IMG/VR virus record: IMGVR_UViG_3300025141_000557
Location: 1 to 28,482 of that record
DNA length: 28,482 nucleotides
Strand: one strand, 5' to 3'
Origin: a virus
Made by a program: the position numbers and the translations under genes. Numbering within the stretch: position 1 is the stretch's first letter; each line of letters opens with the position of its first letter. The notes below the pieces were generated by a model. That model made no database searches. It was given only the letters and a program-made list of their open reading frames with translations, and was not told the DNA's origin. Positions 3,945 to 19,886 of the stretch are shown one piece after another.

Positions 3945-4822
3945 GACAGGGCCTTGAGCAGGCGGGAGGCGCACAGGTCCCAGGAGAAGTAATCCTGTAT
4001 CATGGATTGTCGCTGCTTGGCCATGTCGCGGGAGAATCCTCCGATGATGGCAGTCAGTAGCAGCTCCAGGTCATCTCCGTACAGCGGCAGATCGTGCCGG
4101 TCCATGTAGCCAAGGCCCTCCATGCTATCAGCAGGATGAACCGGATCCACGAGCACAGATCCGCAAGCAGCGGCCTCCACCCTGCCCAGTTCGATAACCT
4201 TCGGCGTGGCATCCAGGAAGATCCAGGCTTTACGCACCGCCTCCATGTACTCCACCCATGGCACGTAGCCGGCCTTCTCCTCCTTGGGCTTGCCGATAAC
4301 CCTGTCAGCAAAAGGCAGAGGGCAATTCAGCGTCCACACCTCGGCCTCTCCGCTTGCTGCCAATGACTCCAGCGCCAGCACACAAGCCTGGTGCCGAGGG
4401 TTGTCCGTCTCTCCCTGGTCCATGTCCCTGTTGTAGGCGTTGAACAACACCACGGGCTTGCCAGGGTCCTGCTCCGGGTAGCACACCGCAGGGTCTGCCC
4501 CCATGCCGATGTAGGCGCCTGGGATTTTGTGCCCATCCAGGGTGGCCAGCCCCCGCGTGGGGCCGTCCGTCACCAGGTAGCGGCTGCCGGGGTCCATATC
4601 TTCCGCGTTGGCCTTGAACCAGTGATGCGCCATGGCGCTGATGGCAATCGCCGCCGTGCTCTCTTCAAGGTTGGGCAGGTCCCGGTCCTTGGATAACACC
4701 GCCTCTGTCCCTGCTCGCCTCAGAGCGTCCCGCAGGTGCCAGGCATAGACCTGGTTATAGCCGACCAGTTGATCGCACCGGGCGGATTCCTCGCTCTTGT
4801 TGCACACCAGTGCAATCTTCAT
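3941..4822 (-). CDS. Glycosyltransferase-like protein (GT-B type), 293 residues
   Basis: The start is the ATG at 4822, preceded by GGAGGTGACGAG and overlapping the upstream stop (ATGA). The protein opens with MKIALVCNKSEE, a Rossmann-like first strand usual in GT-B glycosyltransferases. In the C-terminal third, KVIELGRVEAAACGSVLVDP matches the conserved nucleotide-sugar binding region, where a Glu and a small-residue turn precede the last strand. No secretion signal or membrane segment is seen, so it should act in the cytoplasm on an activated sugar. It follows a clear GT4 glycosyltransferase and precedes a methyltransferase. The fold is fairly well supported. Donor and acceptor are unknown, and it is more divergent than its neighbour. 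Confidence 0.65.
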   Translation of the reverse strand: MKIALVCNKSEESARCDQLVGYNQVYAWHLRDALRRAGTEAVLSKDRDLPNLEESTAAIAISAMAHHWFKANAEDMDPGSRYLVTDGPTRGLATLDGHKIPGAYIGMGADPAVCYPEQDPGKPVVLFNAYNRDMDQGETDNPRHQACVLALESLAASGEAEVWTLNCPLPFADRVIGKPKEEKAGYVPWVEYMEAVRKAWIFLDATPKVIELGRVEAAACGSVLVDPVHPADSMEGLGYMDRHDLPLYGDDLELLLTAIIGGFSRDMAKQRQSMIQDYFSWDLCASRLLKALS

Positions 4823-5997
4823 CTCGTCACCTCCGTGTTGTGTGCGTGCCAAGCCAACGCCGCGAAACCATCGAGCATTGAAGCCTGGCTGTATTTATCT
4901 GCTACATGCTGCCGAGCGTTGCGACTACAGACCAGCCCCGCCGAGGGGTGGGACTCCAGCGCATCTATCGCTATCGCTATCGCCTCCGGACTCTGCCCGC
5001 AGTGTACCGCCATGTCAGGCGGCAACGCCTCGCTGAGCGTCCCGGCTCCCGTGTGGATCACAGGTATCCCGGCACCCGCCGCCTCTAGCACCGCCATGGG
5101 TAGGCCCTCGGTGTCTGAACAATTCAGCAGGCAGTCTACGTCCCTGAACAGGTCAGCCGGCACGCAGGTGCCGCGAAGCTCCACCCGCCCGTTCAAGCCG
5201 TGCCGCTCCGCCTGCGCCTCTACCGCTGAGCGTCCGTCACTCCAGCCATGCACCGGGCCAGCAGATACCAGCCTGAAGCGCTCGGGCAACCTCGCCATGG
5301 CGTCTATGGCCAGGTCTATGCGCTTTTCCGGAGAGTACCGCCCCAGCATGCCCACGGTGAAAGGGTCGCCAGGCATCCGGGGGGTGTATACATTTTGCAA
5401 CACCTCTACCCCGTTGGGTATCCCTCCCGGTCCAACAAACACTACATGCTCTGCCCAGGGTGCCCATGGCCCGGTTCCGTTGTGCCTGATGCAGATGCAG
5501 GGAGCCCTGGGAAACCTCGCAGGCGTACCCCAGAAGAGCACCACATCCGCTTCAGGGTAACCCTTGACCACCGGTATGCCCGCGTCAGTTATCCGACTCA
5601 GCAAGCCGTGGTCCGCCTCCGCCATGGTTTCCATGCACCCAAGGCCTTTAACTTCAAAGCCACGGGCCTGGAGCCCACAGGCAAGGTCAACGGTGTGCTT
5701 CTCAGCGCCACCGAGTTGGAGCGTGTGAGTCCAGAGCGCAACAGACGGCATCTGCCCGGGGTCCTCTGGCATGGCCGGAAAGGGGCCGTAGCCCACACCC
5801 TTGCCGCTGCCTGAGTAATGCGGAACTCGCACTACATCATGCACGTACTCTCCGTTTACGGTGCGCCGGCCCAAGGCTTCACCCTTGGTGTAGACCGGCT
5901 CGCAGATGGGCATATTTTCAACGGAATATACGGGGTCGCCTTTACGCCAAGACCAGGTGCGCCCCACCGCTGCGTTGTCATCGTCGCGGTGTTCCAC
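4819..5997 (-). CDS. GT4-family glycosyltransferase, 392 residues
   Basis: I place the start at a GTG at 5997 with GGAGG six bases upstream (GGAGGTTTCAC). An apparent extension to 6132 would run through a strong terminator and has no ribosome-binding site. The GT-B features are clear: QLGGAEKHTVDLA at about 94-106 (N-terminal loop), VGMLGRYSPEKRIDLAIDA at about 215-233 (start of the C-terminal domain), and DTEGLPMAVLEAAGAGIPVI at about 295-314 (the E-x7-E nucleotide-sugar site). About 80 residues precede the first GT motif and have no recognised function. It is the first gene of the module after the terminator at 6047-6079. It probably builds or modifies a surface polysaccharide or decorates a virion protein; the substrate is unknown. 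Confidence 0.88.
   Translation of the reverse strand: MEHRDDDNAAVGRTWSWRKGDPVYSVENMPICEPVYTKGEALGRRTVNGEYVHDVVRVPHYSGSGKGVGYGPFPAMPEDPGQMPSVALWTHTLQLGGAEKHTVDLACGLQARGFEVKGLGCMETMAEADHGLLSRITDAGIPVVKGYPEADVVLFWGTPARFPRAPCICIRHNGTGPWAPWAEHVVFVGPGGIPNGVEVLQNVYTPRMPGDPFTVGMLGRYSPEKRIDLAIDAMARLPERFRLVSAGPVHGWSDGRSAVEAQAERHGLNGRVELRGTCVPADLFRDVDCLLNCSDTEGLPMAVLEAAGAGIPVIHTGAGTLSEALPPDMAVHCGQSPEAIAIAIDALESHPSAGLVCSRNARQHVADKYSQASMLDGFAALAWHAHNTEVTR
5383..5404 (-). repeat. 22-bp conserved dyad, copy inside the glycosyltransferase gene
   Basis: On the minus strand this reads GGTGTTGCA, four bases, then GTATACACC. It keeps the spacing and outer arms of the copies at 16013-16034 and 19327-19348. This copy lies within coding sequence (around the VLQNVYTP part of the glycosyltransferase), so its bases are also constrained by the protein. 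It could be an internal operator or promoter for the downstream glycan genes, or a chance match. Confidence 0.5.
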
Positions 5998-6046
5998 GTG
6001 AAACCTCCAGCGGCATTGTGACAGATAGGCGTTAGGAGGTGAACAC

Positions 6047-6079
6047 AAAAGTGGGGGGCCGGTGACGAACCGACCCCCC
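6047..6079 (-). terminator. Strong intrinsic terminator after the internal virion genes
   Basis: On the minus strand GGGGGGTCGGT (11 bases) pairs with ACCGGCCCCCC around a five-base loop (TCGTC), with one wobble pair. It is followed by AC and a TTTT run. It lies 78 bases downstream of the stop of the 596-residue internal virion gene and just before the glycosyltransferase gene. It should end or reduce the structural transcript. Confidence 0.85.
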
Positions 6080-6093
6080 GGAGGTGACGAACC
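6061..6093. repeat. 11-bp direct repeat flanking the terminator stem
   Basis: GGTGACGAACC occurs at 6061-6071 and again at 6083-6093. The copies start 22 bases apart, about two helical turns. The first copy forms the loop and part of one arm of the terminator; the second lies just upstream of it in the transcript. It may reflect local duplication or an operator. The second copy with its left flank also resembles the recurrent Shine-Dalgarno sequence GGAGGTGACG, but on the non-coding strand. Confidence 0.5.
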
Positions 6094-6156
6094 CTCTGCA
6101 TGTGGAGCATGGAGGGGGGACCGTCGCAACAATGGTGTAGGAGCGACCCTAAAAGG

Positions 6157-7947
6157 TCAAGCGCCGGGGCCTTCCAAGAGTTTCTGCATCTTCGTCATGC
6201 GCTGAACGTCCAGCCCAGACGGTGCTTCGGGCTTAAGGTCGCTGCCCCGCTGCTGCGCCTGCGCTATCTGCAAGCCAAGCGCACCGGCTGAAGCGGGGGT
6301 GGTGGACCAGGTAGCGGACGGCATGCCCAGCGCCAGGGCTATCTGCTGCTCCTGCTGCCAGGTGTACTCCATGCCCCTGGCCACTTGGACTGAAATCTCC
6401 TCCTGCACGAGCCTCCGCCAGATCTCCAGCTCTTCAGGCGCCACCGCCTCCGCCGCCTCTATCCCCTGCTGGGTAAGGTCGCCGGCTGCGAAGTCTTCAA
6501 TCACCGTCTCAGGCGCCATGGCCGCACGGGCAGAGCGGGTCACGTCTATCCGCGCCTCCGTGCCAGGGTCCACCGGTCCCACCGCGCCCTTGACCGGCAC
6601 CACGTCCAGGGGCCGCTGGGGCATGACGGACTGGACCTTGTCTGCCATGAATGTAATGCGCCTTACTTCTCGCTGCACCGCCTCCTGTCTCTGAAGGGGT
6701 GGAATCTCGCTCATCTGCATGTTGAGTTGTGACTCGATACGCCCAGGGGTAGCACCTGACAACTCCGCCGCCATGTTTGAAAACTCTTCAGCGGTGATTG
6801 TCTTGATCGTCTGCCGCTTGGCCACCCTTCCGCTAAGCTTCGCAGCTTCGCCCAAAATTCCGCCAGCGACCTCGATGGATGGCGATTTGGCGATACCCTT
6901 AGCCGCAGCAGCCGCACCCTTGAGGACGGGTGCCAGCGCCTTCTTGGTCAGCGAGATAGCAGCAGGGGCCAGCAGCCCACCTACCAGCACGCCGGGTAGC
7001 CCACCGGACACCGCGCCAAAGACAGCGCCAGCAGCCCGGGAGCCTACCCGCTCTTGTGCAGCCTGTAGCAAGGTGCCAGCCAGGCTGGTGGGTGCCGTAG
7101 CCATCTCCTCTGCCAGGTCCGCAAGGCGTATCTCTAGCTTTGACAGCCGTGCCGCGTCTATCTGTCCTGCCGGGTCCAGGCTGGAGGGCTTTAGGTCGGT
7201 ACGCACGCCCTTTGCCGTCAGGGCCTCCGCCTCGGCCTCTAGCCCCGCCCGCTCTGCCTGCTGGGCGCTACGCTTGGTCGCTTTGTCCAGACCTGCCTTG
7301 ACCTTGCCCCGGGTGAACCGGGCCAGAGAGGACACGCCCAGCCCTACCACGGAGAACGCCCCGCCGATGGCCGCTCCCTCTGCGGTGGAGGTCAGCAGGT
7401 GGCCGGCTGCTTCTCCCGCGTCGATAGGTCCAGCGGTCTGCGCCACGTCTGACACGCCCTGCCCGCCGCCGATGGCCGCTCCCTCTGCCAGCCCGGGGAC
7501 AACCGCCTGAACGATGCGGGAGGCTGGAGCTATTCCTCTAGCGGCACCTTGGGCCACCTTGCCGATAGCACCCAGGGGGCCAAACACCGCACTGGCCACC
7601 GTGCCGCCCACCTGGCCGATGGTGGAGGCTATGGGGTTGGACTCCTCGAGGGTTTTCAGAGCCCCCCCCGCTTCTTCCCCGCCGATAACTCGAGCTAGCA
7701 CGTCGGTGCCGCCCAGGGTGAAGTCACTAGCAGCGCCCAGGGTGGCGGCTAGAACTGGAGCGTCTGTGGCCTCCGCTGGGTCCAGGGTGCGTATCTTGAA
7801 GCGCTTGCGGGTGTCCTCCGTGGTGTCAGCGGTGGCTGTGCCGTCCTGGATCGCCTTGACGGCATCGGCCTCTGGCAGGCGCAGGGGCTTGCCCTCGGTG
7901 TCCAGCAGCGGAACCGAGCCGTCAGATAGCCTGAAGAAGTTGGGCAT
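6157..7947 (-). CDS. Internal virion / DNA ejection protein candidate, 596 residues
   Basis: The gene starts at an ATG at 7947 with GAGGTAGACC upstream; the stop of the previous gene falls inside that site. The N-terminal 55 residues look like a small folded segment. Long Gly/Ala-rich, weakly hydrophobic stretches follow at about 75-210 and 300-365 (for example GAVFGAVSGGLPGVLVGGLL). These glycine-zipper patterns are common in phage internal core proteins that form a channel through the host membrane during DNA ejection. The region between and after them is helical and charged. It is the third of three consecutive Ala/Gln/Gly-rich genes placed after the tail nozzle candidate, where T7-like phages carry their internal core proteins. 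No transglycosylase motif was recognised. The role is inferred from composition and position. Confidence 0.65.
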   Translation of the reverse strand: MPNFFRLSDGSVPLLDTEGKPLRLPEADAVKAIQDGTATADTTEDTRKRFKIRTLDPAEATDAPVLAATLGAASDFTLGGTDVLARVIGGEEAGGALKTLEESNPIASTIGQVGGTVASAVFGPLGAIGKVAQGAARGIAPASRIVQAVVPGLAEGAAIGGGQGVSDVAQTAGPIDAGEAAGHLLTSTAEGAAIGGAFSVVGLGVSSLARFTRGKVKAGLDKATKRSAQQAERAGLEAEAEALTAKGVRTDLKPSSLDPAGQIDAARLSKLEIRLADLAEEMATAPTSLAGTLLQAAQERVGSRAAGAVFGAVSGGLPGVLVGGLLAPAAISLTKKALAPVLKGAAAAAKGIAKSPSIEVAGGILGEAAKLSGRVAKRQTIKTITAEEFSNMAAELSGATPGRIESQLNMQMSEIPPLQRQEAVQREVRRITFMADKVQSVMPQRPLDVVPVKGAVGPVDPGTEARIDVTRSARAAMAPETVIEDFAAGDLTQQGIEAAEAVAPEELEIWRRLVQEEISVQVARGMEYTWQQEQQIALALGMPSATWSTTPASAGALGLQIAQAQQRGSDLKPEAPSGLDVQRMTKMQKLLEGPGA

Positions 7948-7950
7948 GGT

Positions 7951-9393
7951 CTACCTCGCCCTGGCTAGCTTTTCCTGGGCCTTTATCTTGGTGGTGAGGT
8001 TTTTGATAGTTGAGACGATCAAGGGGGTCTGCTTTGAACCGGGGTCCGTTTGCAGAATGGCCATCAACTCCTGGCGCCGCTCATTCAGCCGCCCTGCAAG
8101 TTTGGACGCTATTTGCTGCTCGCTATCAAAGAAGGACGGGTAGTTGGGGTCAATCCTGGCAATCTCATCGGGGCGAGCGGTCACGCCGGACAGAGCCTTG
8201 ACGTGAAGGCTGATAATCTCCCCGCGCTGGCCTAGCAGCCTGGCGGCGTCGGTGCCGGGGAACCTGGCTGCGATTGACTCCAAGGCGCCCCTGCTTAGTT
8301 CCCCTGCCGCGCCCCCCGCCTTGGCCACCGCCGAAAAGAACTTTCTGCCAGCAGTGGTCCCTCGCATTTTGCGCAGGTCATTGATGAAGCGCTCCTCTCT
8401 GGCTGTAGAGGTGACAGCGGCTCGTATCTTGTTCTTGCTGTCCTTGTCCAGCTTGCCGCCACGGGTGGACTGTACGCCCCGCTTTGTGGTTACGGTGGAC
8501 TTGTCAGCCATCAGGGCCGCTGCTTGGTTGCCTGCCTGCATGGCCCGCTGCTCCAGTTGCGCCGCTGTCACCTCTGCGCCTGCCTTAAGTACTGGGTCTT
8601 GGCTGGACGCTGCAATGCCCTTAAGCATATCCGCCTGGTTTGCCGCTAGGCGCTTGTATGCTAGCGCCTCGGCTGCATCTTCTCTGCCAAGCCTTGCGGT
8701 GAGGGTGGCGAGGAAGGAGCGCTTCTCAGCGCGTATCCTGGCCTTGCCAGCCGCCCGCCCCTTCTGCTGCTGGATCTGCTGGTTGATCAGCCGGTCAGCG
8801 ATAACCAGCGCAGGGTTAGCGCCGCCCTGCATCATAAAGCCCATGGCCCGCCCGGCAGCCTCTGCCGCCCTCTCCAGGTCTGCCTGTTGTCCCAGCGATA
8901 GGCGCGGGGGTGGTGTCTCCCGCTCTGCCTCTGCGGTCATCCTGGCAAGGTCCGCCTGCACCCGTGATATCTGAGACTCCACATCTGCCCGTGCCGCGTC
9001 TGCGTCTGCGGCTATGGCGTCCCGCTCTGCCGGCGCCTGAAGCGCTACAGCGGCCTCTTGCTGCGCCTGCGCCGCCTTGGCCTTGGCTTGCGCTAAAAGC
9101 GCCGCACGGGCTTGCTCGCTGGACGAGAGGAACTCCTGAGACCCAAAGGGCAGATCCACGCCCTGCTGAGTGGTGGTGCTAGTGGCAGAGGTTGGGATAA
9201 ACGCCGGGGGTAGTGGCGCGGGTCCTGGCGCGGGCAGCGGCAAAGGAGCGGCAGAGGGGCTGTCTACGTTGACCCCGGTGATACCGCCGCTGTCATCCCC
9301 TCCGAAGAACGGAGAGGGCTTAGCGAGCGGACCAAAGCCGAACGCACCGCCAGTCTTGCCGAATGCTTCAGGGGGAGGGGGAAACGGGGGCAT
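7951..9393 (-). CDS. Internal virion protein candidate, coiled-coil, 480 residues
   Basis: The gene starts at an ATG at 9393 with AGGAGGACAGA upstream. The first 75 residues are Pro/Gly-rich and probably disordered (MPPFPPPPEAFGKTGGAFGF). From about 85 to 320 it is Ala/Gln/Glu/Arg-rich with long heptad-like helical stretches, suggesting a coiled coil. The C-terminal part (about 320-480) is mixed and helical, with many Lys and Arg. No enzyme motif was found. It lies between a Gln-rich protein and the glycine-zipper protein, and the set resembles the internal core proteins (T7 gp14-gp15-gp16 order) of short-tailed phages. The match is by position and composition only; a scaffold-like or tail-associated role cannot be excluded. 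Confidence 0.65.
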   Translation of the reverse strand: MPPFPPPPEAFGKTGGAFGFGPLAKPSPFFGGDDSGGITGVNVDSPSAAPLPLPAPGPAPLPPAFIPTSATSTTTQQGVDLPFGSQEFLSSSEQARAALLAQAKAKAAQAQQEAAVALQAPAERDAIAADADAARADVESQISRVQADLARMTAEAERETPPPRLSLGQQADLERAAEAAGRAMGFMMQGGANPALVIADRLINQQIQQQKGRAAGKARIRAEKRSFLATLTARLGREDAAEALAYKRLAANQADMLKGIAASSQDPVLKAGAEVTAAQLEQRAMQAGNQAAALMADKSTVTTKRGVQSTRGGKLDKDSKNKIRAAVTSTAREERFINDLRKMRGTTAGRKFFSAVAKAGGAAGELSRGALESIAARFPGTDAARLLGQRGEIISLHVKALSGVTARPDEIARIDPNYPSFFDSEQQIASKLAGRLNERRQELMAILQTDPGSKQTPLIVSTIKNLTTKIKAQEKLARAR

Positions 9394-9402
9394 TCTGTCC
9401 TC

Positions 9403-10035
9403 CTAGCTAGACTTCTGCTGCGTACCCTGGCTACCTGACAGCGCTGCCTGTGCGCGGCCTGCCTGCGCCATGAGTTGCGCCGCCATCATGCGCCGCTGCA
9501 TGTCAAATTGTTGCTGTTGAGTCAATAGCCGCTGCTGCTGAAGCCTGTTGAGTTGGCCCTGCTCTGCGCCTGCGGAGAGTTGCCGGTTCAAGCCGGCAAA
9601 GCCGAGCTGCTGTCCGAACTGCTGCCCGGCAAGCTGGCCCTGCCCCAACAGCGCCTGAATGATAGCCTGCTGCGCCGTGGCTTGCTCCTGTGCGGCGGCC
9701 ACCGCCGCCTGACCTGCAATGTTAGCCCCTGCCTGTGATGTGGCGTTAAGGGCAGCACGAGCCTGCGCCGGGTCGAACCCTGAGCCCAGGGAGCCAGCAA
9801 GGGTCTGCTGAAGCCGCTGCTGCTGAAGACCTGCCTGCTGGGCTGAGATAAGGTTCTGCCCACCAGCACGCTGCTGCAACTGCCCCAGGGCGGTGTCAAA
9901 GGCGGATGTGTTGAAATCCGGAATACCGGGAGCCGTAGGGGGTGTCCGGCTGGAGGGGTCCTTAAAAGTCTGCGTCCCGCTGGTCTTCTGCTTGGAGCCG
10001 AAGTGGCCCCCGAAGTTGCCGAACTTAAAAGCCAT
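9403..10035 (-). CDS. Gln/Ala-rich internal virion protein candidate, 210 residues
   Basis: The gene starts at an ATG at 10035 with GTAGGAGGATACC upstream. A short Gly/Phe-rich N-terminus (MAFKFGNFGGHFG) is followed by a helical region very rich in Gln and Ala from about 50 to 195 (for example QQQRLLTQQQQFDMQRRMM). Low-complexity Gln/Ala proteins of about 200 residues right after the tail nozzle gene are typical of the smallest internal core or ejection protein in podoviruses (T7 gp14 position). No catalytic motif is visible. It starts just after the stop of the 999-residue tail gene. Confidence 0.65.
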   Translation of the reverse strand: MAFKFGNFGGHFGSKQKTSGTQTFKDPSSRTPPTAPGIPDFNTSAFDTALGQLQQRAGGQNLISAQQAGLQQQRLQQTLAGSLGSGFDPAQARAALNATSQAGANIAGQAAVAAAQEQATAQQAIIQALLGQGQLAGQQFGQQLGFAGLNRQLSAGAEQGQLNRLQQQRLLTQQQQFDMQRRMMAAQLMAQAGRAQAALSGSQGTQQKSS

Positions 10036-10044
10036 GGTATCCTC

Positions 10045-13044
10045 CTACGTTTTTTCCAGGGTCCGCTTGCCACCGGGGCGATACAGGGGACCCTCTTGCA
10101 TGAACCCAAAGACCGCTGCTGTCAGTGACATGTTCGTGTTGGCCCTTGAGTACGATATCTTAGCACGAATACTCGTTACACCTTTCCCTGATGGCATTGA
10201 GTCAAGCAAACACCCCTCGTCTCGCACGGTCCCAGGCATAGTATAGTGATCCGTGAACGGGTTAGCCTCAACGCCCACCCATGCCAAGTCCTCCGCGTCC
10301 ACCCATATGGTGTCATAATTAAAGGCGTACTGGAGGGTAAGGGTCGCGTTCGGGATGTTCTTCTGTCCGAGCCAGAGCGTTCGAGTGGGAACGAACCTTG
10401 ACAGGGGTCCGCCCAGTCCATGCCAGCCGGTGTCAGCTGCCACCAGCACAGGGGACCCGTCCTCATCCGTTGAGGCATTTTCAGAGGCCCTGACGACCTT
10501 GCTACCATTGTGGAAGTACAGTTGCTCGTTGGGGTGTTCTTTCGTGCTGCCGTAGACAATGTCCACCCCTGGCAATGTCCACAGAACCCAGGAGTCATGC
10601 TCCCAAAAATAGAGCAGCATGGCGTGGCTGGTCACGAATACTGCGGCACCCACGGTCTCCCAGATGGCGGCAGCCTTCACCGTTCCACTGTTGGCGGTGT
10701 AATACATCATGCGCTCGCCAATGACCCTATTCACCTTAAAACTGGGCGTAATCAGGTAGATAATATCATTGGTGCCCTTGAAGAAAACGCCCACGTCGGT
10801 GGCTACCACCGTCTTCTCGTTGTCGGTGCCTATGGCGCCAGACAAAAGCTCAGCCGGCCTGTATCCGTAGCCCTGCCCCGTGTTGTCTCGTTCCACGCCG
10901 CTGGCGACATAGATCCGCCGCTCCTTGAAGATAATCAGCCGGCCTCGGTGGCTTTGCAGCGCAGTTATCCTCCCCCCTTCTCCGTCGATGGGGATCTCCA
11001 GGAACGCTGAATGATTCAATGGGTCATTAAATCCGCTCTGCTTTCCGTATCTAACGACGGTGGACTCTCGGCTCCTTGGAGCGTAGCAGTAGCGGCCATG
11101 GTGCAGCGCCGCCACTCGGTGGCCTTCCGGGGGGTCGTTATCCAAGACGCCGCCCGTGGTGTAGATCGCGGAGGCGAGAGAGGCATCTGCCAAGAGATCG
11201 GTATAGGTGGCCGCTAGGTTATACAGCCTGGTTTGAGCCGTTCCGCCGGTCAGGAACAGCCACACGCCCCCGTCTGCCTCCGTGCGGTACAGCTCCCATT
11301 CCACGTAATCCCGGTTGCTCACCGCGCAGGCGTTTACCTCGATATCCACCTTCCTTGTTCCCGGGTTAACAAACTTCGTGGCCTGACTCATAGCGCTGCG
11401 GAACACGCGGCCATCGGCATCTGTGGCCTTCCAGAGTATGCGGTAGTAGTAGGTTCCCGCTGCAATGGAGCCTCCGGAGCCCGCATCGGTTGCCTTTGGC
11501 TTTGGCGGAATAATCGGCCAAGCATCCTCTACGATGTCCTGCCCATCCGTGTAGTAGGGCAGGGCGCTGGGGATGCGGATGCCCTTTTCACTCAGCACGG
11601 GCTTAAACGAGGTCTGTTGGGTCACGGTAACAAGCTTCGCGCCCGCCGTGGTGTTGTTTGCGTTTTTGAGGTAGAGGCAGGCGAATATGTGGTTCTCCCC
11701 CTCGGTGGTTACCCTGCTTATTTCCCTGGGGTGTCCAATGGCGGCATCCCCGAGCCAGGCGCTGCCCGCCAGGAACTTCCCCCGGGAGGGCTGCGCCTTT
11801 ATGGACGACAGGTTATTAGTGCCGTCCCAGAGGATGTTAGCCAGTGGTCCAAGGTCCAAGGTGGACCACGCATTCACCGTAATCGGATAAATCCACCGCC
11901 CTGAAGGTCCCGCGAAAAATGGGGGAGTTATCGGGGAGCATCCGTTAACGGAGTTTCGGAACGTGCCCATGGACGTGGCAAATGGAGAGCCGACCCAAGA
12001 CGTTATGTAGTCCCTCTCCACGGTTTCAGTAGAGGATAGGCCGCCGAGCTGCTGCGCTCCCGTGTCTCGGTAGCTGAAGAAAATAGACATAATCGTGTCA
12101 GAGGTCTGAAGCCCAACGGCAGAGACGGCCTCCTCAGTCCCCGGGGGAGTCCATAGCGTTTGAAAGGTCATCGAGTTTCCATCGGTTACATTGTACCCAA
12201 TGGCCGTTACCGCCTTGCTACCAGTGTCTCTTACAACAACTACGGCATGGCCCCCGCCGGCAGGGTTCGTCATCGGAGTAAGCCCAATGGGCTGGGTGTT
12301 TCCACCTACTGCAATTGGATAGGTCCCAAGGAGACCGCCGTTAGCGGAGTTGAAGGCCAGCATCTCCGTTGTGGTGGCGCTGTCCGCCGCCGCTGTCATC
12401 AAGTGGCCACCGCCCAGGTCTACAACGAATAGCAAGGGGGAGGAAAATGCAGTAGATGAGGCCAGCGCCGCTGATACGGTGAATGATTTAGTGGCTTCGT
12501 TAAAGAACCCCCACCTAAGTGCGGATGAACCCGCCCTATACACGTAGGTTAACTGGTCCTGAACGCAAATGACCCTAACTACATTGTTATTAGCGCCACC
12601 GGTATACGTATCTGAGTCTACAAGGCTCCCGTCTGACCGGTCATAAGCTTTAAGGGTCAAGGTGTTGTTAAAGGTGAACGCTATCACCCTGTAGTTGTCA
12701 TTCTGGCACATCTCAATTCCAGTGATGGCCTGGTTATCTACATTCAGTTCCTCGACGTCAATGTCGAACAGGTTTAGGTCTCCAATGGAGACGCCCTCGT
12801 TGTCCCCGTCGCTGACCTTCAGTACATCCCCGCCCATGTAAAGCTTGTCCTCATGGATGAAGATATTTGCCTGGTCTTCCTCGTCGTCGCTCACCTCGAC
12901 GGTGCCCACCCGGGGGAACATCTCATTCCGATGCACTGGGTACATGTTCTGGATGAGGATAGGGCGCTCAGAGGTCTTTGGGTCTGACCCTGCGTCCATG
13001 CCCTTGGCGAAGCTTACAGCCTTGACTAGTTCTTTAGGCGGCAT
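10045..13044 (-). CDS. Large tail protein, probable tail nozzle (tail tubular protein B-like), 999 residues
   Basis: The gene starts at an ATG at 13044, directly after the upstream TAG stop, so translational coupling is likely (no strong ribosome-binding site). It is the largest gene in the window. The N-terminus (KELVKAVSFAKGMDAGSDP) and repeated short beta-patterns fit a beta-propeller-like tail protein. Around residues 660-760 it has RITALQSHRGRLIIFKERRIYVASG and then TDVGVFFKGTNDIIYLI. This is a pattern I associate with podovirus nozzle or stabilisation proteins, where propeller strands carry 'rGRLixFkerriYxS'. It follows the adaptor gene and precedes the internal virion genes, as T7 gene 12 does. 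It should form the lower tail tube. The sequence looks somewhat richer in A/T than its neighbours around 11900-12900. A P22-like needle or stabilisation role is the main alternative. Confidence 0.65.
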   Translation of the reverse strand: MPPKELVKAVSFAKGMDAGSDPKTSERPILIQNMYPVHRNEMFPRVGTVEVSDDEEDQANIFIHEDKLYMGGDVLKVSDGDNEGVSIGDLNLFDIDVEELNVDNQAITGIEMCQNDNYRVIAFTFNNTLTLKAYDRSDGSLVDSDTYTGGANNNVVRVICVQDQLTYVYRAGSSALRWGFFNEATKSFTVSAALASSTAFSSPLLFVVDLGGGHLMTAAADSATTTEMLAFNSANGGLLGTYPIAVGGNTQPIGLTPMTNPAGGGHAVVVVRDTGSKAVTAIGYNVTDGNSMTFQTLWTPPGTEEAVSAVGLQTSDTIMSIFFSYRDTGAQQLGGLSSTETVERDYITSWVGSPFATSMGTFRNSVNGCSPITPPFFAGPSGRWIYPITVNAWSTLDLGPLANILWDGTNNLSSIKAQPSRGKFLAGSAWLGDAAIGHPREISRVTTEGENHIFACLYLKNANNTTAGAKLVTVTQQTSFKPVLSEKGIRIPSALPYYTDGQDIVEDAWPIIPPKPKATDAGSGGSIAAGTYYYRILWKATDADGRVFRSAMSQATKFVNPGTRKVDIEVNACAVSNRDYVEWELYRTEADGGVWLFLTGGTAQTRLYNLAATYTDLLADASLASAIYTTGGVLDNDPPEGHRVAALHHGRYCYAPRSRESTVVRYGKQSGFNDPLNHSAFLEIPIDGEGGRITALQSHRGRLIIFKERRIYVASGVERDNTGQGYGYRPAELLSGAIGTDNEKTVVATDVGVFFKGTNDIIYLITPSFKVNRVIGERMMYYTANSGTVKAAAIWETVGAAVFVTSHAMLLYFWEHDSWVLWTLPGVDIVYGSTKEHPNEQLYFHNGSKVVRASENASTDEDGSPVLVAADTGWHGLGGPLSRFVPTRTLWLGQKNIPNATLTLQYAFNYDTIWVDAEDLAWVGVEANPFTDHYTMPGTVRDEGCLLDSMPSGKGVTSIRAKISYSRANTNMSLTAAVFGFMQEGPLYRPGGKRTLEKT

Positions 13045-13437
13045 CTAAAGCACCCACAGGGCCACTGTGCAGGCCCCTGAAGTTGTAACCTGGATTACTT
13101 TATCATCAGTGACGGCCACATCTGCCGGCGTCTGGTACACGTACACGGCTGCGGATGGGATACCCGCCAAGATGCCAGCAGGGCGGCGCTCTAGCGGGTT
13201 ACCTACCTTGGAGGTGCCTGATGGTAGGTCAACGTCTATCCGCCTGGCACCCATGAACGGCTGAGCCCTGGTCTGCTCGATATCCCCCCGGGCGCTGTCC
13301 AGGTCGTCCCTGTCTACCGCTGGCGCCTCAAGGGGCTCCGGGGCCTTCTCTACCAGACCGACAGCAGCATCCTGCGCCGCTAGTGAGGCACGGGCTACGA
13401 AGTCATCAATGGCTGGGTTCTGGTCACCTGCTGGCAT
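13045..13437 (-). CDS. Hypothetical structural protein, 130 residues
   Basis: The gene starts at an ATG at 13437 with AGGATGAGAC upstream, and its stop touches the start of the 999-residue gene. The N-terminal half is acidic and helical (DDFVARASLAAQDAAVGLVEKA). The C-terminal half is a small beta-rich segment ending VIQVTTSGACTVALWVL. Short proteins of this kind often sit between the adaptor and nozzle genes of podoviruses, but I recognise no family. Its role as a minor neck or tail component is inferred from position only. Confidence 0.65.
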   Translation of the reverse strand: MPAGDQNPAIDDFVARASLAAQDAAVGLVEKAPEPLEAPAVDRDDLDSARGDIEQTRAQPFMGARRIDVDLPSGTSKVGNPLERRPAGILAGIPSAAVYVYQTPADVAVTDDKVIQVTTSGACTVALWVL

Positions 13438-13445
13438 GTCTCATC

Positions 13446-14156
13446 CTATGGCAGCCCAAGGTTTCGCCGGCCATACCTGTTGTACCCTCGCCGGCCTCCC
13501 TGGAACCTACCGCCGCCAGCGTCCCAGATCTTACGGGCGGTCCCCAGGTTGCGCAGCTCTGCCCGCTTGCGGATAGACGCCTCCAACTTCCCCAGGAAGG
13601 CAAAGGACACCGTTACGTCCTTGGCCTCCGTGTCCAACTGCCAGGAGCACACCTTACGCACCACGTACTCGTCCCACCCGTGTATGCCGTCGTAGGTGTC
13701 TGCATCGTTTCCCATGTCGGCAATGACCGGGATGTGCCAGAGCCGCAAGCCAGCAGCCTGAGTCCAGCCGGGTAGCCTGTCGAACATGATAGAGGGGCCC
13801 ACCAGCCTCCACCGAATATCCTCTCGATGCTGCCAGTTTTGCCGCAGGTCGTCCTGGTCCCTCAGATCGAATGTATCAAGGGGCTGACTCCACCCGCCAT
13901 CCTTCCGCAGCACCTGCAAGAACAACTGCTTGTAGCTTGCCGTAGGCAGGGCCACTGTCTGAGCGTTGATCGTAACTTTCAGGTCTACGCTCTCCACCCG
14001 CCAATAGGGGTCACCAGAGATAATGATATCGTCCACCTCCTGGACAGCGAGGTTGATATCTTCGTTCAACTCTGCGTCTGTTACGCGGATAGACCGGGCG
14101 TCACATCTACGGCGGATGCGATCCCGCAGGGACAGGAGTGTGGTGGTACGGGACAT
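13446..14156 (-). CDS. Head-tail adaptor / tail tubular protein A-like, 236 residues
   Basis: The gene starts at an ATG at 14156 with GGGAGCGCACC upstream. The N-terminus TTLLSLRDRIRRRCDARSIR followed by VTDAELNEDINLAVQEVDDII has the helix-loop-helix pattern of phage adaptor proteins (T7 gp11 / P22 gp4-like), in which an early 'D.El...iN.a..el...i' stretch packs against the portal. A beta-rich middle follows (VDLKVTINAQTVALPTASYKQ). The C-terminal helix is basic (EASIRKRAELRNLGTARKIW). The length and position, after the capsid and before the nozzle candidate, agree. It would connect portal and tail. Confidence 0.75.
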   Translation of the reverse strand: MSRTTTLLSLRDRIRRRCDARSIRVTDAELNEDINLAVQEVDDIIISGDPYWRVESVDLKVTINAQTVALPTASYKQLFLQVLRKDGGWSQPLDTFDLRDQDDLRQNWQHREDIRWRLVGPSIMFDRLPGWTQAAGLRLWHIPVIADMGNDADTYDGIHGWDEYVVRKVCSWQLDTEAKDVTVSFAFLGKLEASIRKRAELRNLGTARKIWDAGGGRFQGGRRGYNRYGRRNLGLP

Positions 14157-14186
14157 GGTGCGCTCCCTTGGGGCAGCGCCCCGGGC

Positions 14187-14582
14187 CTAAACCTTCTTAT
14201 TGCTCAAGTGTACCCTAACATACAGCCGGTTACTGATGATGTTGACCAGCGCCCCGGAGTCGCTCTCCACACCAAGATAGATCTTCTTGGTGGTGCCACC
14301 CGGCACAGGATACAGGCGCATGAACGGGTTAATGCTCTTGGTGCTTCCGCTATCCGCCACGGTGAGACCGATGAACTCCAGGTCTCCCCATGGCTCGGAC
14401 AGGTTCAGGTCGTACAGTCCCACGCCCCCGTGTGTTACGGGGGTAGTACCGTCCAGGACCCTCTTAAGTCCGCTAGACATGGACTCATAATCCCCTGAAG
14501 CGTCCATGAGGATATAGCCCGAGAAGGTGTTTTCCTGGGGGCTGTCTGTATTCGAGCCGTGCCGCGCTAGCTTGGTAGCCAT
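14187..14582 (-). CDS. Hypothetical virion protein downstream of the capsid, 131 residues
   Basis: The gene starts at an ATG at 14582 with AGGAGGCTGAT upstream. The product is beta-rich and mildly acidic (LEFIGLTVADSGSTKSINPF, VSNRLYVRVHL-like C-terminus). It has no membrane segment and no known motif. Small beta-proteins encoded right after the major capsid gene are often decoration or head-completion proteins, so that role is possible. It could equally be a neck component. I do not recognise a family. Confidence 0.65.
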   Translation of the reverse strand: MATKLARHGSNTDSPQENTFSGYILMDASGDYESMSSGLKRVLDGTTPVTHGGVGLYDLNLSEPWGDLEFIGLTVADSGSTKSINPFMRLYPVPGGTTKKIYLGVESDSGALVNIISNRLYVRVHLSNKKV

Positions 14583-14600
14583 ATCAGCCTCCTATCCGGC

Positions 14601-15893
14601 TCACACCGAGATGTTGAAAGCCACGCCGCAGTTGGCCGGGTCCTTCAGGATGAAATCGTAGTAGCCGCCCGTGCGGCTCTCGTAGGAGTCCAGGGAGGCC
14701 TTCCGCAAGATCTCGTTACCGTCCTCGTCCAGCATGTCAGGCATCGGCCCAACGCTGTACATGGTCAGAGACTCGTTGCAGCAGTACATGAAGCCCTCGG
14801 GACAGTACAGGTCCTCAAACACGGTGACGCGTCCGGCCCTGGACTGGATAGCGAAGCCCTCAACGCTCAGGTCGGCAATGTCTCCGCTGCTTCCGCGTGC
14901 AGGCCGCTTAACGAGGGGAATGTCAACGATTCCCTTGTCGTAGAGGATCTTACGAATAGCCGCGCCGATGGTGGGCGTGGTGTACAGTTCAAGGTCGTCG
15001 CCGAGCAAGGTGCAGAGGTCCACCAGGTCAAAGGCGATCTCCACCGGGTCAGTATAGGCGGTGGCGTTCAGGCGGTAGCCGGCCAACTCATTGGGGGCTA
15101 CGGAGCGGTCAACGCCAAAGTGGCTGTCACCCGAGGTGGGGGCAGTCGTCGGGATGCAGGAGCCTAGCCCGTTGGGGGCATTGGAATAGTCGCCGTCCCA
15201 ATACAGGTAGTCGCTTGCCGCGCCAGAGAAGGAGGAAATGGCGGTATCCACCTCCAGGGTGCCGACCTTGCCGCTGGCCGTGGTTGTGATCTGACTGGAG
15301 ACCACGCGGGTGGTGGTGCCGTAGGTGCCAGCGCCGCGCTTGCCGCTGCCGTCCGCGCTGGAGAGGGTGATATTCATCCGGCGCCGGAAGAGCTTGGCCA
15401 TGTTGGGCTCTGCCAGGGTTAGGGTCGTGCTGGTGCCGCTGGTGCTGGCGAGCTGGGCAATGCTGCCGGTGGTGGAACGGTACGCCTTGGCTGCCAGCCG
15501 GTGGGCAATCAACTTCATGCTGGACTTAACGCGCCGGTCTGCGACCACGAAGAAGGCGTCCCGGTCGTTGCCTGACTTGGCAATCCTGTAAGCCTTGCCG
15601 GTGACGCTCCAGATGGCGTACTCATTGATCGCGTTGGTGCTGTCCAAGATCCAGTGGTCAGCGGACATGACCTCTCCGCTCTCGTTCTGTGCCTGGGAGA
15701 AGTCAGCAGACGCGCCCTGCGCCTCTCCGAACTCCAGGTAGATCTCGTTCTGCTTGGAGAACCAGTCCTCCTTCTTCTTCATGCGCCGGAACAGCGGGGA
15801 CCTGGACGCCTCCAGCAGGGACAGCTCGTACTCTTTTTCCTCGTACCGAATCTTCAGAAATTCGGCCAAGTCAGATTTGACAGTGTCAGCCAC
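14601..15893 (-). CDS. Major capsid protein, 430 residues
   Basis: I choose the GTG at 15893 because GGAGG lies eight bases upstream of it. An ATG at 15908 would have no ribosome-binding site and would add only five residues. The N-terminus is helical and charged (VKSDLAEFLKIRYEEKEYEL). EASRSPLFRRMKKKEDWFSK then resembles the start of HK97-fold capsid proteins of podovirus type, with a spine helix later (DRRVKSSMKLIAHRLAAKAY). The length is normal for the family. The gene is preceded by a scaffold-like gene, its own promoter and a leader hairpin, which fits a very highly expressed virion protein. No known motif proves the assignment; it rests on size, fold-like pattern and gene order. Confidence 0.8.
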   Translation of the reverse strand: MADTVKSDLAEFLKIRYEEKEYELSLLEASRSPLFRRMKKKEDWFSKQNEIYLEFGEAQGASADFSQAQNESGEVMSADHWILDSTNAINEYAIWSVTGKAYRIAKSGNDRDAFFVVADRRVKSSMKLIAHRLAAKAYRSTTGSIAQLASTSGTSTTLTLAEPNMAKLFRRRMNITLSSADGSGKRGAGTYGTTTRVVSSQITTTASGKVGTLEVDTAISSFSGAASDYLYWDGDYSNAPNGLGSCIPTTAPTSGDSHFGVDRSVAPNELAGYRLNATAYTDPVEIAFDLVDLCTLLGDDLELYTTPTIGAAIRKILYDKGIVDIPLVKRPARGSSGDIADLSVEGFAIQSRAGRVTVFEDLYCPEGFMYCCNESLTMYSVGPMPDMLDEDGNEILRKASLDSYESRTGGYYDFILKDPANCGVAFNISV

Positions 15894-15987
15894 GGCTAAC
15901 GCCTCCATTCAAAGGTGTTTGCGTGGCCGGTGTGCCCAAGGTGGTTGGCGAGTCGGGCGGAGTTGGCGATTAGCGCCGGCCTGTTGT

Positions 15988-16003
15988 GCGGGACAGTTCC
16001 CGC
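15988..16003 (-). other. Leader hairpin upstream of the capsid gene
   Basis: On the minus strand GCGGGA and TCCCGC pair perfectly around the loop ACTG. There is no T-run, so it is not a terminator. It sits about 10-25 bases downstream of the predicted transcription start and roughly 95 bases before the capsid start. 5' hairpins of this kind often protect highly expressed phage messages from decay or mark RNase processing. Confidence 0.55.
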
Positions 16004-16010
16004 TGTTCAA

Positions 16011-16047
16011 TAGGTGTATCTTATTTGCAACAGTCCGGAGCGGTCAA
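16011..16047 (-). promoter_or_regulatory. Promoter candidate for the capsid operon
   Basis: On the minus strand TTGACC (16042-16047) is followed after 18 bases by TAAGAT (16018-16023). This is a fair match to a housekeeping-sigma promoter. It lies 10 bases after the scaffold stop and about 120 bases before the capsid start. The -10 hexamer falls inside the conserved 22-bp dyad, so a protein bound there could control initiation. Confidence 0.55.
16013..16034 (-). repeat. 22-bp conserved dyad, copy upstream of the capsid gene
   Basis: The minus strand reads ACTGTTGCA, four bases, then AGATACACC. It matches the portal copy (19327-19348) in 16 of 22 positions by eye, with identical spacing; the left arm is less symmetrical. 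It overlaps the -10 element of the capsid promoter. It may be an operator, or the core of a phage-type promoter used for late genes. Confidence 0.6.
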
Positions 16048-16057
16048 GCGGTATTTG

Positions 16058-16939
16058 CTACTTGTGTCTAGACTGCACCTTGGCCCGCGCCCGGTGAAGG
16101 TCGTACTTAACCCTCTCCTCGGCGGAGAGTTTGGAGCGGTCCACCTTGGGGGCCGACCCCCCGGTGTTGCCGTTGGAAGGCACAGGAGGCGCACCGGGGG
16201 CGGCAGGGGCTGGCGTCAGGAAGTCAGGCACATCCGCGCCACCCTTCTTGACGGTGTAGCCCTCCGCCTCCAGCGCCTTGATTACCTCTGCCTGTGTAGC
16301 CTTGGAGGTGGCCAGCGCTGGCGCAAGGGCGCCGTGGTAGTCAGCGAACTGCTGCTCCGCCGCCTTCATCACATTCAGCATGTTAGGTGCCTCTCCGGTG
16401 GCCTTCTGCGTCTCTGCAAACTGAGAGTAGACGTAATCCACCGCACCCTGCCCGCCCACGGTGAGGTGGGGGAACTTGTCGGGGGTGGCCTGCACCACCT
16501 GCTGCACCTCTGCGGATACGGTGCGCTTGCCGCGCCGCTCTGCTGATGCCTTGGCCTGACCGGTGAGGTCTTCAATCTGCTTGGCCTGCTTATCCACCAT
16601 CTCCTGCATGGCCTTCATGTGCTTGCGGACCTCTGCTGCCTCTAGCGGGTCGCTCTGCCGGTCCTGCTCTCCGAGCAAGGAGGTGATCATAGCGTTGGGG
16701 TCGTGCCCGAACTTGGCCAGCAGCCTGTAGGGGTCCTTGGCATCGTCATCTGAGACGCCAGCCTCCTTGAGCTGCCGCTTGAGGGATAGCTTGTCATCCT
16801 CGCCCCGGGCCAAGCGTGACTCCATGTCCTGGAGTTGCGCTGTCAGTTCATCCCGTGTGGGGCCTTCAGGCTTGGCCGGTGGTGGATCTGCCGGTGGAGC
16901 GGCTGCGGGGGTCGCGGCGCCTGTGTCTTCGCTGGCCAT
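16058..16939 (-). CDS. Scaffolding protein candidate, 293 residues
   Basis: The gene starts at an ATG at 16939 with GAGGGATAATCC upstream. The first 28 residues are Ala/Pro-rich and disordered. A charged helical region follows (RDELTAQLQDMESRLARGEDD and further to about residue 150) with coiled-coil character. There is a Pro/Gly-rich linker at about 240-270. The C-terminus is basic and helical (LSAEERVKYDLHRARAKVQ), the usual capsid-binding end of scaffolding proteins. It sits between portal and capsid, where scaffold genes are expected, and has no enzymatic motif. The assignment is by composition and position. Confidence 0.75.
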   Translation of the reverse strand: MASEDTGAATPAAAPPADPPPAKPEGPTRDELTAQLQDMESRLARGEDDKLSLKRQLKEAGVSDDDAKDPYRLLAKFGHDPNAMITSLLGEQDRQSDPLEAAEVRKHMKAMQEMVDKQAKQIEDLTGQAKASAERRGKRTVSAEVQQVVQATPDKFPHLTVGGQGAVDYVYSQFAETQKATGEAPNMLNVMKAAEQQFADYHGALAPALATSKATQAEVIKALEAEGYTVKKGGADVPDFLTPAPAAPGAPPVPSNGNTGGSAPKVDRSKLSAEERVKYDLHRARAKVQSRHK

Positions 16940-16942
16940 GGA

Positions 16943-17221
16943 TTATCCCTCCCCGCCCATGTCTTCTGAGTGGCACCAGGTGCCGGGGCGCTGGTGCGGG
17001 TCATACGGCACCGCCGTCAGGCTCTCTTGCGACTCGTAGCCGTGGGGGCCGTGGTCCTTGGAGCGCCAGAACACAAACAGCTCTAGCACCGTGTCCCTCT
17101 CCGGGGACCGGGCCTGGACCATGGCCACCCGCTGCCCGTTAATCTCCTTGGGCGTGTAACGTACCGTTGTTCCAACTCCTGCCAGGCGTACCTGTGCCTT
17201 GCCGTCTCCCTGCTTTACCAT
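16943..17221 (-). CDS. Hypothetical protein between portal and scaffold, 92 residues
   Basis: The gene starts at an ATG at 17221 with AGGAGATACGCGC upstream and ends three bases before the scaffold start. It is a small, probably beta-rich protein (VGTTVRYTPKEINGQRVAMV; VLELFVFWRS) with a His-containing C-terminus. I recognise no family. It may be a head-maturation or portal-associated accessory protein, but there is no direct evidence. Confidence 0.65.
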   Translation of the reverse strand: MVKQGDGKAQVRLAGVGTTVRYTPKEINGQRVAMVQARSPERDTVLELFVFWRSKDHGPHGYESQESLTAVPYDPHQRPGTWCHSEDMGGEG

Positions 17222-17251
17222 GCGCGTATCTCCTATTCCTAGCGTGGTCTA

Positions 17252-19294
17252 CTACACAACCCCAGGCGGTACACCGGCTCCTCCGGTGCCCAATGGGGCG
17301 GGTTCACTCTCTGGCACTGGTGGCGCTCCGCCGCCTCCGTCTAGCCCACCGGGAGCACCCGGCAGCCCGCCACCCCCATCTCCCCCTGCGCCTGGCAGTG
17401 TAGCGGCTATCTGCGCCTGCAACTCAGCCTGACGTGTAGCAAGGGCCACCGTCTGATGATCTAACAGCGCCTCTGCGTCCTTCTTCCAGCCGGCCAACTT
17501 GTCAAGCGTCTCTGCCTCTGCACCGTGCATCTTGGCATACAAGAAGGTGGACGCAACCCACTGGATAGACAGGTTCAGGTCTTCAATCGGGTCCGGGGCA
17601 TGCACCCGCCCGTGATACATCATCTCGTCAGCCACCCATTGGGCGTACCTGATAGGTGCGAGCTTGATATTCTGAGCGCTCTCAAGGTCGGGCATGTCCA
17701 GCATTTGCCATCCCAGCGCCGGATCCAGCGCCCCCATGCCGATCAACTGCTGAATGAAGTTAAGGCGCCCCGGGGGGTCCTTGGGCAGTTTGGAGACCGG
17801 GAACACCTCCAGCGTGAACGACTCTTCAGGCAGGTTAATGCCCTTGAGGGACGTGCGCTCAATGGTGTTGCTGCCGGTGCGTGCCCCTACCTCTAGCGTG
17901 ATGCCTGCGGCCTCCGCTTCCTTGACGAGTTTTAGCAAGCGCTGAGACACCGCAAGGATAAAGCGTTCATATCCGCGCTGCTTCAAAGCGTACCGCCGGG
18001 AGGCAATATCGCCCAGGGTGTCAAGCGCCTTTCCGGACAGGTTGCCGCTGGGCTTCTCGCTAAATGCCTCCATCTTGGAGGTGCCTACGATGTTGAAATA
18101 CTGGCTTGCGTACTCAAAGGGCAAGCCGAGCTGCTGAGCTGACATTACGTCAGGCTTGGCAATGGTCACACCTTTAGGCCACAGGTGGCCGTCTTCGTTG
18201 GTGATGAAGTCATCAGGCAATTGAGACTCGTCAACGGAGTTATCCATAATCACCTGTAACTTGCTCCCCAGGTGCATGGCCCGCTGGTTGCTGGCCAGGA
18301 TGGCGCTGATTTCGTCCTGAAGGGGCAGCCCCTCCTCTACCATGCCCTGGCCCCAGTAGCCGGCTACAGGCTCGTTCCAGTCCAGTTTGACGAACCGGAA
18401 CTCCTCCTTATCGTGCTCGATATCCACCAGGTCTACAGACCGAGCCGACACCACCAGCCTGCCGTTCTTCTTGCCGTTGGTCGCCTTGCGGAAGGCTACC
18501 GATATCTCTACGAGGTTTTGCTCCACCCGGTTGGAGCGGGGCACCTGCCTTGCGTCTCCCCCTGCCGCCTCTCTCAGCCGGGTAGACGTGGCAAGGGCGC
18601 GGGACCGGCTATCTTTACTCTTGGCCTGCGTGGCGCTCAAAGAGGAGTCCAGCTTGGTCTTCAGTTCCGCGTTGAGGTGTGCGTCCTCGTCCTTCTTGGA
18701 GGCGTACATGCGGTACAACTCGTCAACGGTAAGCCACATCTGGCGGTAGATTTCACGGGGCGGGGAGAAGAGGTACGCCTGCTCGTCTACGAAGTATTGC
18801 CACTTCGGCGTCCACTCCACCAACAGGTCTTTGGACTTCTCGTCAATGTCCATGTCCAGTAGGCCGCTGCCCATAATCTCCGCGTCACGCATTACCCTCT
18901 CGCCCAACTCGTAGATTTTAAACCGCTGGAACAGTCCATCTATATACCGCTGGAGAATGCGAGCGTTCAGGTGGTCGTCCCAGTTACCCATAGACGGCAC
19001 CACCTGAATACGTGGCCGGTCCAGGCAGATGTTAGCGAGGGAGGTATCTACGGCGGAGCGGGAGACGTTCAGGTCAAGGCGTACCCTGGAGGCGGAGGTC
19101 AGATGGTCGGTGTACGACTCCTGGAACTCACCGGGGTGGAAGCCCCACAGGTCCCGCCCCATGTACTGAGACACCATCTTCAGGTCCCGGTGGTAGGTGC
19201 TGGCCTGGCTGGACTCCGTTAACCGGTCCACTAGCTCGAATAGCTTGGAGTGTACCTGGTCGCTGGATTGCTCGTACCACTGGTCCTGGGGCAT
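17252..19294 (-). CDS. Portal protein (head-tail connector), 680 residues
   Basis: The gene starts at an ATG at 19294 with GCGGAG seven bases upstream. The N-terminal third has typical portal features: LTSASRVRLDLNVSRSAVDT and DRPRIQVVPS (about 67-105), then a long helical region (RDAEIMGSGLLDMDIDEKS) and KWQYFVDEQAYLF. The middle carries LQDEISAILASNQRAMHLGS, the stem-like helix region, and SEKPSGNLSGKALDTLGDIA. The C-terminus (about 600-680) is helical, then Gly/Pro-rich and probably disordered. The length suits a podovirus portal with a long barrel. It follows the large terminase and precedes scaffold and capsid. It would form the dodecameric ring through which DNA is packaged and ejected. 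Confidence 0.88.
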   Translation of the reverse strand: MPQDQWYEQSSDQVHSKLFELVDRLTESSQASTYHRDLKMVSQYMGRDLWGFHPGEFQESYTDHLTSASRVRLDLNVSRSAVDTSLANICLDRPRIQVVPSMGNWDDHLNARILQRYIDGLFQRFKIYELGERVMRDAEIMGSGLLDMDIDEKSKDLLVEWTPKWQYFVDEQAYLFSPPREIYRQMWLTVDELYRMYASKKDEDAHLNAELKTKLDSSLSATQAKSKDSRSRALATSTRLREAAGGDARQVPRSNRVEQNLVEISVAFRKATNGKKNGRLVVSARSVDLVDIEHDKEEFRFVKLDWNEPVAGYWGQGMVEEGLPLQDEISAILASNQRAMHLGSKLQVIMDNSVDESQLPDDFITNEDGHLWPKGVTIAKPDVMSAQQLGLPFEYASQYFNIVGTSKMEAFSEKPSGNLSGKALDTLGDIASRRYALKQRGYERFILAVSQRLLKLVKEAEAAGITLEVGARTGSNTIERTSLKGINLPEESFTLEVFPVSKLPKDPPGRLNFIQQLIGMGALDPALGWQMLDMPDLESAQNIKLAPIRYAQWVADEMMYHGRVHAPDPIEDLNLSIQWVASTFLYAKMHGAEAETLDKLAGWKKDAEALLDHQTVALATRQAELQAQIAATLPGAGGDGGGGLPGAPGGLDGGGGAPPVPESEPAPLGTGGAGVPPGVV

Positions 19295-19318
19295 ACACGG
19301 CTCCGCTTGTCCTGCATT

Positions 19319-19600
19319 TTAGCGAAGGTGTATCAATTCTGCAACACCGGGGGTTAGTCGCCAACGATGTGCGCTGCTTGGTATTCGCCGGACCTTGTGT
19401 GTTTTGCCGCTGTGCTGCGAATTGCCCACCCTATTAGCCCTCCCCTTGTTCTGTGGCGCTGCACCTGTAGGTGAGCGGCCTGAGTCGGTCTTCTGGGGCT
19501 GCGCCTCGGGGCGGTGGAGTCGGGAGGACTTCCGAGATCCGCCATCGGAGCGTAGAGGTTTGCCCCAATAGGAGTATGAGGATGTGTGATTCAGGGGCAT
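19319..19600 (-). CDS. Doubtful ORF, Ser/Arg/Lys-rich, 93 residues
   Basis: An open frame starts at an ATG at 19600 (MPLNHTSSYSYWGKPL) and ends at 19319. It is basic and low in hydrophobic residues (for example SDGGSRKSSRLHRPEAQPQK), and looks disordered. There is no convincing Shine-Dalgarno sequence, the third codon positions are not as GC-rich as in neighbouring genes, and the end runs through the conserved dyad. If real, it might be a small DNA-binding or virion protein; it is more likely a chance frame. Confidence 0.2.
   Translation of the reverse strand: MPLNHTSSYSYWGKPLRSDGGSRKSSRLHRPEAQPQKTDSGRSPTGAAPQNKGRANRVGNSQHSGKTHKVRRIPSSAHRWRLTPGVAELIHLR
19327..19348 (-). promoter_or_regulatory. 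22-bp conserved dyad, copy upstream of the portal gene
   Basis: The minus strand reads GGTGTTGCA, GAAT, TGATACACC. The two nine-base arms are related by dyad symmetry (GGTGTWKCA in each direction). It ends 33 bases before the portal start codon. No good sigma-70 -35/-10 pair is aligned with it, so the dyad itself may be the functional element, as an operator or a phage-specific promoter core. Related copies lie at 16013-16034 and 5383-5404. Confidence 0.6.
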
Positions 19601-19654
19601 GTCAAGCAGTATTTCCGCTACCCCCGCAGGGCCACGGCTAGAGGCGCAAACGGG

Positions 19655-19699
19655 CAAAGTGTAACCTGGCTTACCTGTGACACCTGGGGTCACACTTTG
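19655..19699 (-). repeat. 12-bp inverted repeat overlapping the end of a gene
   Basis: On the minus strand CAAAGTGTGACC (19688-19699) can pair with GGTTACACTTTG (19655-19666) over 12 bases with one wobble, enclosing 21 bases. The stop codon of the 64-residue gene (19690-19692) is inside the first arm. No T-run follows directly. It may act as a rho-assisted terminator, an RNA processing site or a protein-binding site at the end of the packaging operon. Confidence 0.6.
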
Positions 19700-19884: not shown

Positions 19885-19886
19885 CG

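Follow-up and report, generated by a model that had tools for sequence, protein, structure and literature searches.

Results

Gene layout of the record and position of the sites

The window, that is, the whole stretch of DNA that was analyzed, is the entire IMG/VR record IMGVR_UViG_3300025141_000557 (28,482 bases, G+C 61%), which is a fragment of the genome of an uncultured tailed phage. Its recognisable genes are all on the minus strand, where the terminase large subunit is followed by portal-like, scaffold-like and capsid genes (the usual order), then by tail genes and a methyltransferase/glycosyltransferase module. The features that matter here are as follows.

19887..21356, minus strand, terminase large subunit (PHROG 2, E 2e-32; relatives)
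19295..19886, minus strand, terminase-to-portal gap, 592 bases, contains site A
19327..19348, minus strand, site A, GGTGTTGCAGAATTGATACACC, 33 bases 5' of the portal start codon
17252..19294, minus strand, portal/head-tail connector gene, 680 aa (weak PHROG 332 match; homologues on ~130 viral contigs)
16058..16939, minus strand, scaffold-like gene between portal and capsid (from position and composition only)
16013..16034, minus strand, site B, ACTGTTGCAAATAAGATACACC, between the scaffold-like stop (16058) and the capsid start (15908)
15909..16057, minus strand, scaffold-to-capsid gap, 149 bases, contains site B
14601..15908, minus strand, major capsid protein gene, 435 aa (homology and position)
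5383..5404, minus strand, site C, GGTGTTGCAAAATGTATACACC, within the glycosyltransferase gene, in frame
4819..6132, minus strand, glycosyltransferase, Glycos_transf_1 (Pfam PF00534; PHROG 2170)

The portal and capsid match almost nothing in PHROGs or Pfam and nothing in phage records, and the scaffold-like gene is without a family match. The portal homologues on viral contigs often adjoin terminase and capsid genes, and the capsid homologues, ~22-31% identical, occupy a syntenic position in relatives. The DNA of the two gaps has no similarity of note to phage records. A 131-aa predicted ORF with a GTG start (19319-19714), whose end runs through site A, has no homologue among the gap ORFs of relatives, so the non-coding status of the portal gap is uncertain.

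Sequence and setting of the three sites

The three 22-base copies that the earlier note had reported are exact in coordinates, strand and orientation. All are on the gene strand and have in common a core, TGTTGCA-N6-ATACACC, plus one inner A, with 15 of the 22 columns invariant. Sites A and B lie, as the note had also said, in gaps directly 5' of the portal and capsid genes; gaps make up ~7% of the window. The whole record has no fourth copy at two or fewer mismatches, and its matches at three mismatches are all outside the gaps. A candidate for an extended fourth copy, at 27327 of the window, was rejected because it falls within a short ORF and scores no better than shuffled sequence. The term "quasi-palindrome" is too generous for the sites: TGT-N12-ACA, the only part that is symmetric in all three, is kept, but just seven (site A), six (site C) and five (site B) of the 11 positions pair, hence the dyad symmetry expected of a palindromic operator is not kept in every copy, and ~4% of the window's 22-mers have six or more pairing positions.

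Site B overlaps a weak sigma-70-like hexamer pair, TTGACC-18-TAAGAT; the earlier note had described the capsid copy as overlapping a sigma-like -10. Site A lies upstream of TAAAAT, itself preceded 17 bases earlier by TTGCAG (by eye), and the offset from site to candidate -10 differs, on our reading, between the portal and capsid gaps. Because sites A and B overlap or touch weak sigma-70-like hexamers, they would be easier to reconcile with an operator than with the site of an activator bound upstream, and the differing offsets would likewise favor an operator over a promoter core of fixed position. Site C reads E V L Q N V Y T P in the frame of the Glycos_transf_1 gene with codons of ordinary rarity, and the proposal that it switches on the glycan module from within is unsupported.

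Comparison with shuffled sequence

How far the match exceeds chance depends on what is held fixed. The motif taken as a pattern after the fact is expected zero times, which overstates the case since the pattern had been derived from those very matches. When any word of the form 7-Nk-7 (k 0-14) in three places was counted, 2 of 40 shuffles contained one (p ~0.05), and the window itself holds two, the second apparently coding. A narrower test, in which only gaps were shuffled and the terminase-portal and scaffold-capsid gaps were fixed beforehand, asked for a site common to both gaps and present once more outside them, with at least 15 columns identical, and found this in 5 of 4000 shuffles (p ~0.001); with any two gaps allowed under the same column criterion this rose to 48 of 2000 (p 0.024). 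The pair of sites A and B alone scarcely exceeds shuffled gaps, if at all, matching at 17 of 24 columns against a null maximum of 18, and at 17 of 22 being equalled in 3 of 100 shuffles. The sequence, strand, placement and better-than-shuffled similarity of the sites are established directly. The three-site match probably exceeds chance, and we put the odds of some function for the gap copies slightly above even.

The motif in relatives

Relatives were collected by portal alignment (16 contigs) and by a portal peptide pattern (more than 100 further contigs, each confirmed by tblastn); single-sequence scans found none. These ~130 relatives have the portal gene in common, many also terminase and capsid, and they are distant, with portals 20-32% identical. 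They form a large uncultured phage family (L206-L221 and L241-L358) with the portal peptide KPxGxxSGKAL and the order terminase, portal, scaffold, capsid, and the portals that were queried matched nothing in the collection of phage records. Their terminase-portal gaps carry small ORFs of ~65-85 aa, mutually similar across up to ~39 contigs, of which no counterpart was detected in the window.

The scan of relatives that the earlier note had suggested, with a matrix built from the three sites, went against it: 130 of 131 relatives scored no better than shuffled controls, and in 0 of ~130 is the motif kept at the portal and capsid gaps. The single exception, L212, has two tandem near-identical motif copies 37 bases apart (GTGTTGCAAAAAAGATACACC and GGTGTTGTAAAAAAGATACACT), one of which matches the core of site B at 19 of 20 positions. 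Both are on the strand opposite to the genes, just before a small-terminase-like gene. These copies are suggestive, but they came from a search for the motif. Outside the window, motif matches occur about once per contig, and the refined core, TGTTGCARAWWWGATACACC, has only 4 viral contigs and 5 genomes to its name, near a rough chance estimate, for which reason we rejected the motif as a widespread element. Two contigs found through the motif, L013 and L036 (the latter part of L212, its full contig), encode related portal and capsid proteins, which, the family being common in IMG/VR, is no clear enrichment among ~118 motif contigs; the remaining ones have unrelated contexts. The L013 copy, within the portal coding sequence at a contig end, was read as chance.

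Dispersed repeats of other lineages

A few relatives carry dispersed repeats of their own, among them these three.

L208, 7337, 9629, 12836 and 19978, plus strand, 22-36 base repeat AAAAGCGGGACAWWTGGCCCTTTAGTAG in gaps beside structural genes
L212, 587-681 (with the tandem motif copies), 6647-6682 and 8965-9000, 36-base repeat AAAATATARTGNNGGCACATATAYGGACA
L207, 863-920, 3225-3282 and 5492-5521, 30-58 base repeat AAAAACTATATAATATTCACGTATATAGGG in the gaps between terminase and portal, between portal and scaffold, and following the capsid gene

The four copies in L208 (AAAAGCGGGACAWWTGGCCCTT, gene strand) stand before a small GNAT-like gene, right after the terminase and before the portal, after the scaffold and before the capsid, and after a large tail gene. 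Being near-identical and four in number, they would make a better case for a promoter or operator than the window motif does. In L212, the repeat abuts the tandem reversed motif copies and is found again downstream of the portal gene and once more downstream of the capsid gene; it is promoter-like, and the L207 repeat likewise looks promoter-like. A dispersed gap repeat exceeded a relative's own shuffles in 12 of 121 relatives (by two or more in 5), and most of the 121 show none; repeats of this kind are thus either sporadic or diverged beyond recognition.

Discussion

The main result of this study is that the observation of three co-oriented sites is confirmed, its interpretation is partly supported and the proposed function is putative. 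The account we favor, to which we give a little under an even chance, is that the two gap copies are a lineage-specific site where a DNA-binding protein of phage or host origin acts on the portal and capsid promoters. Such a protein would contact TGT-N12-ACA and asymmetric inner bases and, once bound, would help or block host RNA polymerase, thereby setting late-gene expression; binding, promoter activity and the direction of the effect (help or block) are what we infer here. Portal and capsid would be separate transcription units, each promoter with its gap copy, and site C would probably be fortuitous or a minor extra site. Since neither a single-subunit RNA polymerase nor an Ogr activator was found in records that may be incomplete, host polymerase may read the late genes. 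Speaking for an operator are the 15 invariant columns in three co-oriented sites, the 5 in 4000 gap shuffles with a third copy and the fall of two of three sites into ~7% of the sequence, the L208, L207 and L212 repeats in structural-gene gaps together with the L212 tandem copies, and the weak promoter hexamers overlapping site B. On the other side, the motif is not kept in ~130 relatives (distant, portals 20-32% identical), the A and B pair alone is not above shuffled gaps, the any-word p is ~0.05, and many other features could have been picked in the earlier note; moreover, most relatives are without a gap repeat, the -10 offset differs between gaps, and the L212 copies are reversed and precede a small terminase gene. 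The idea of a late-gene operator thus keeps the support of placement, strand and L208-type repeats, but not that of conservation or of the pair taken by itself, and it is plausible to read the sites as a late operator or promoter element peculiar to this lineage. That the family as a whole drives portal and capsid from lineage-specific dispersed elements, swapped or rewritten between lineages and each with its own regulator, the window motif being one, would be a much bolder generalization, and we consider it unlikely.

Set against this is the possibility that three similar A+T-rich 22-mers in 28 kb were picked by eye because two of them precede named structural genes, which has a substantial probability, somewhat below half. 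It is favored by the 2 of 40 shuffles with a comparable word and the second, apparently coding word in the window, by the any-two-gaps p of 0.024 and the want of conservation in relatives, by the ordinary codons of the one coding copy, and by motif matches elsewhere at about one per contig with only 4 viral and 5 genome matches to the refined core; the fixed-gap p of ~0.001, the common strand of the three sites and the location of sites A and B in gaps where L208 has its own repeat argue against it. A promoter core for a phage-encoded T7-type RNA polymerase reading the late genes, one version of the phage-specific promoter core in the earlier note, is improbable. Co-oriented dispersed sites before structural genes, relatives with repeats at similar places and the end of the L207 repeat, CACGTATATAGGG, which by eye resembles such promoters, would suit it, but a PF00940 polymerase is absent from the window and from the records of 12 relatives (three of 33-39 kb; they may be incomplete) in a search that found the T7 control, a T7 RNA polymerase query gave nothing with tblastn or phmmer, and no common start sequence lies downstream of the sites.

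Two further readings are less probable still. A repressor acting on one-way asymmetric dispersed sites, some in genes, so as to block elongation in the lysogen would explain the asymmetric core, the single orientation and the copy within a gene, and one-way asymmetric sites are described for cluster A mycobacteriophages (PMC6550527), but there are only three sites in 28 kb and neither repressor nor integrase was identified within the window; we regard this as very unlikely. Least probable, and already disfavored, is an RNA element, whether a terminator, a leader structure or a hairpin for processing: two copies have GGTGT and ACACC segments capable of pairing, but the arms are broken in site B, folding z-scores of -0.6 to -0.7 at all three sites leave RNA structure unsupported, and Rfam and tRNA searches returned nothing.

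The late promoters of P2 carry an Ogr/Delta activator site, TGT-N12-ACA (PMC3931495). All three window sites have this spacing exactly, and two precede late structural genes, but the fit is weak evidence because the window has nine matches against 4.2 expected. The zinc-finger activator (PF04606) is absent from the window and from the records of seven relatives (which may be incomplete), the control search being positive. In P2 the site is centred ~55 bases before the transcription start; here, only 43 bases separate the centre of site A from the portal start codon, which may be too short for that placement. The stoperators of cluster A mycobacteriophages are short, asymmetric and dispersed, with one orientation to transcription (PMC6550527), and the window sites resemble them in each of these respects. 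There are three copies here, far fewer than in a stoperator array, which has ~20 or more, and no repressor was seen. In cluster O mycobacteriophages, a 17-bp repeat of unknown function, TGTTCGG-N3-CCGAACA, is a perfect dyad with more than 30 copies (PMC4351075); like the window sites it is short and dispersed, in part intergenic and in part within genes, whereas the window has three imperfect copies. Among dispersed phage sites, stoperators and cluster O repeats come closest, and the window sites belong to neither kind. Promoters of the T7 type resemble the window sites in preceding structural genes and lying on the gene strand, and differ in that no polymerase was found and the window sites have no start sequence in common.

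If the sites are operators, they would open a first way into the late-gene control of what seems to be a common phage family, one with portal proteins that match nothing among sequenced phage records. Should they be due to chance, the case is a useful warning: a post-hoc motif gave zero expected matches, and tests that took the choice into account gave p values of 0.001 to 0.05.

Other genes of the record

A GroES-like co-chaperonin gene (21359-21802) lies directly upstream of the terminase large subunit, and a PAPS reductase-domain gene (24565-25587) has a ParB-like gene (23539-24414) and a Rad52-like gene (26559-27293) in its vicinity.
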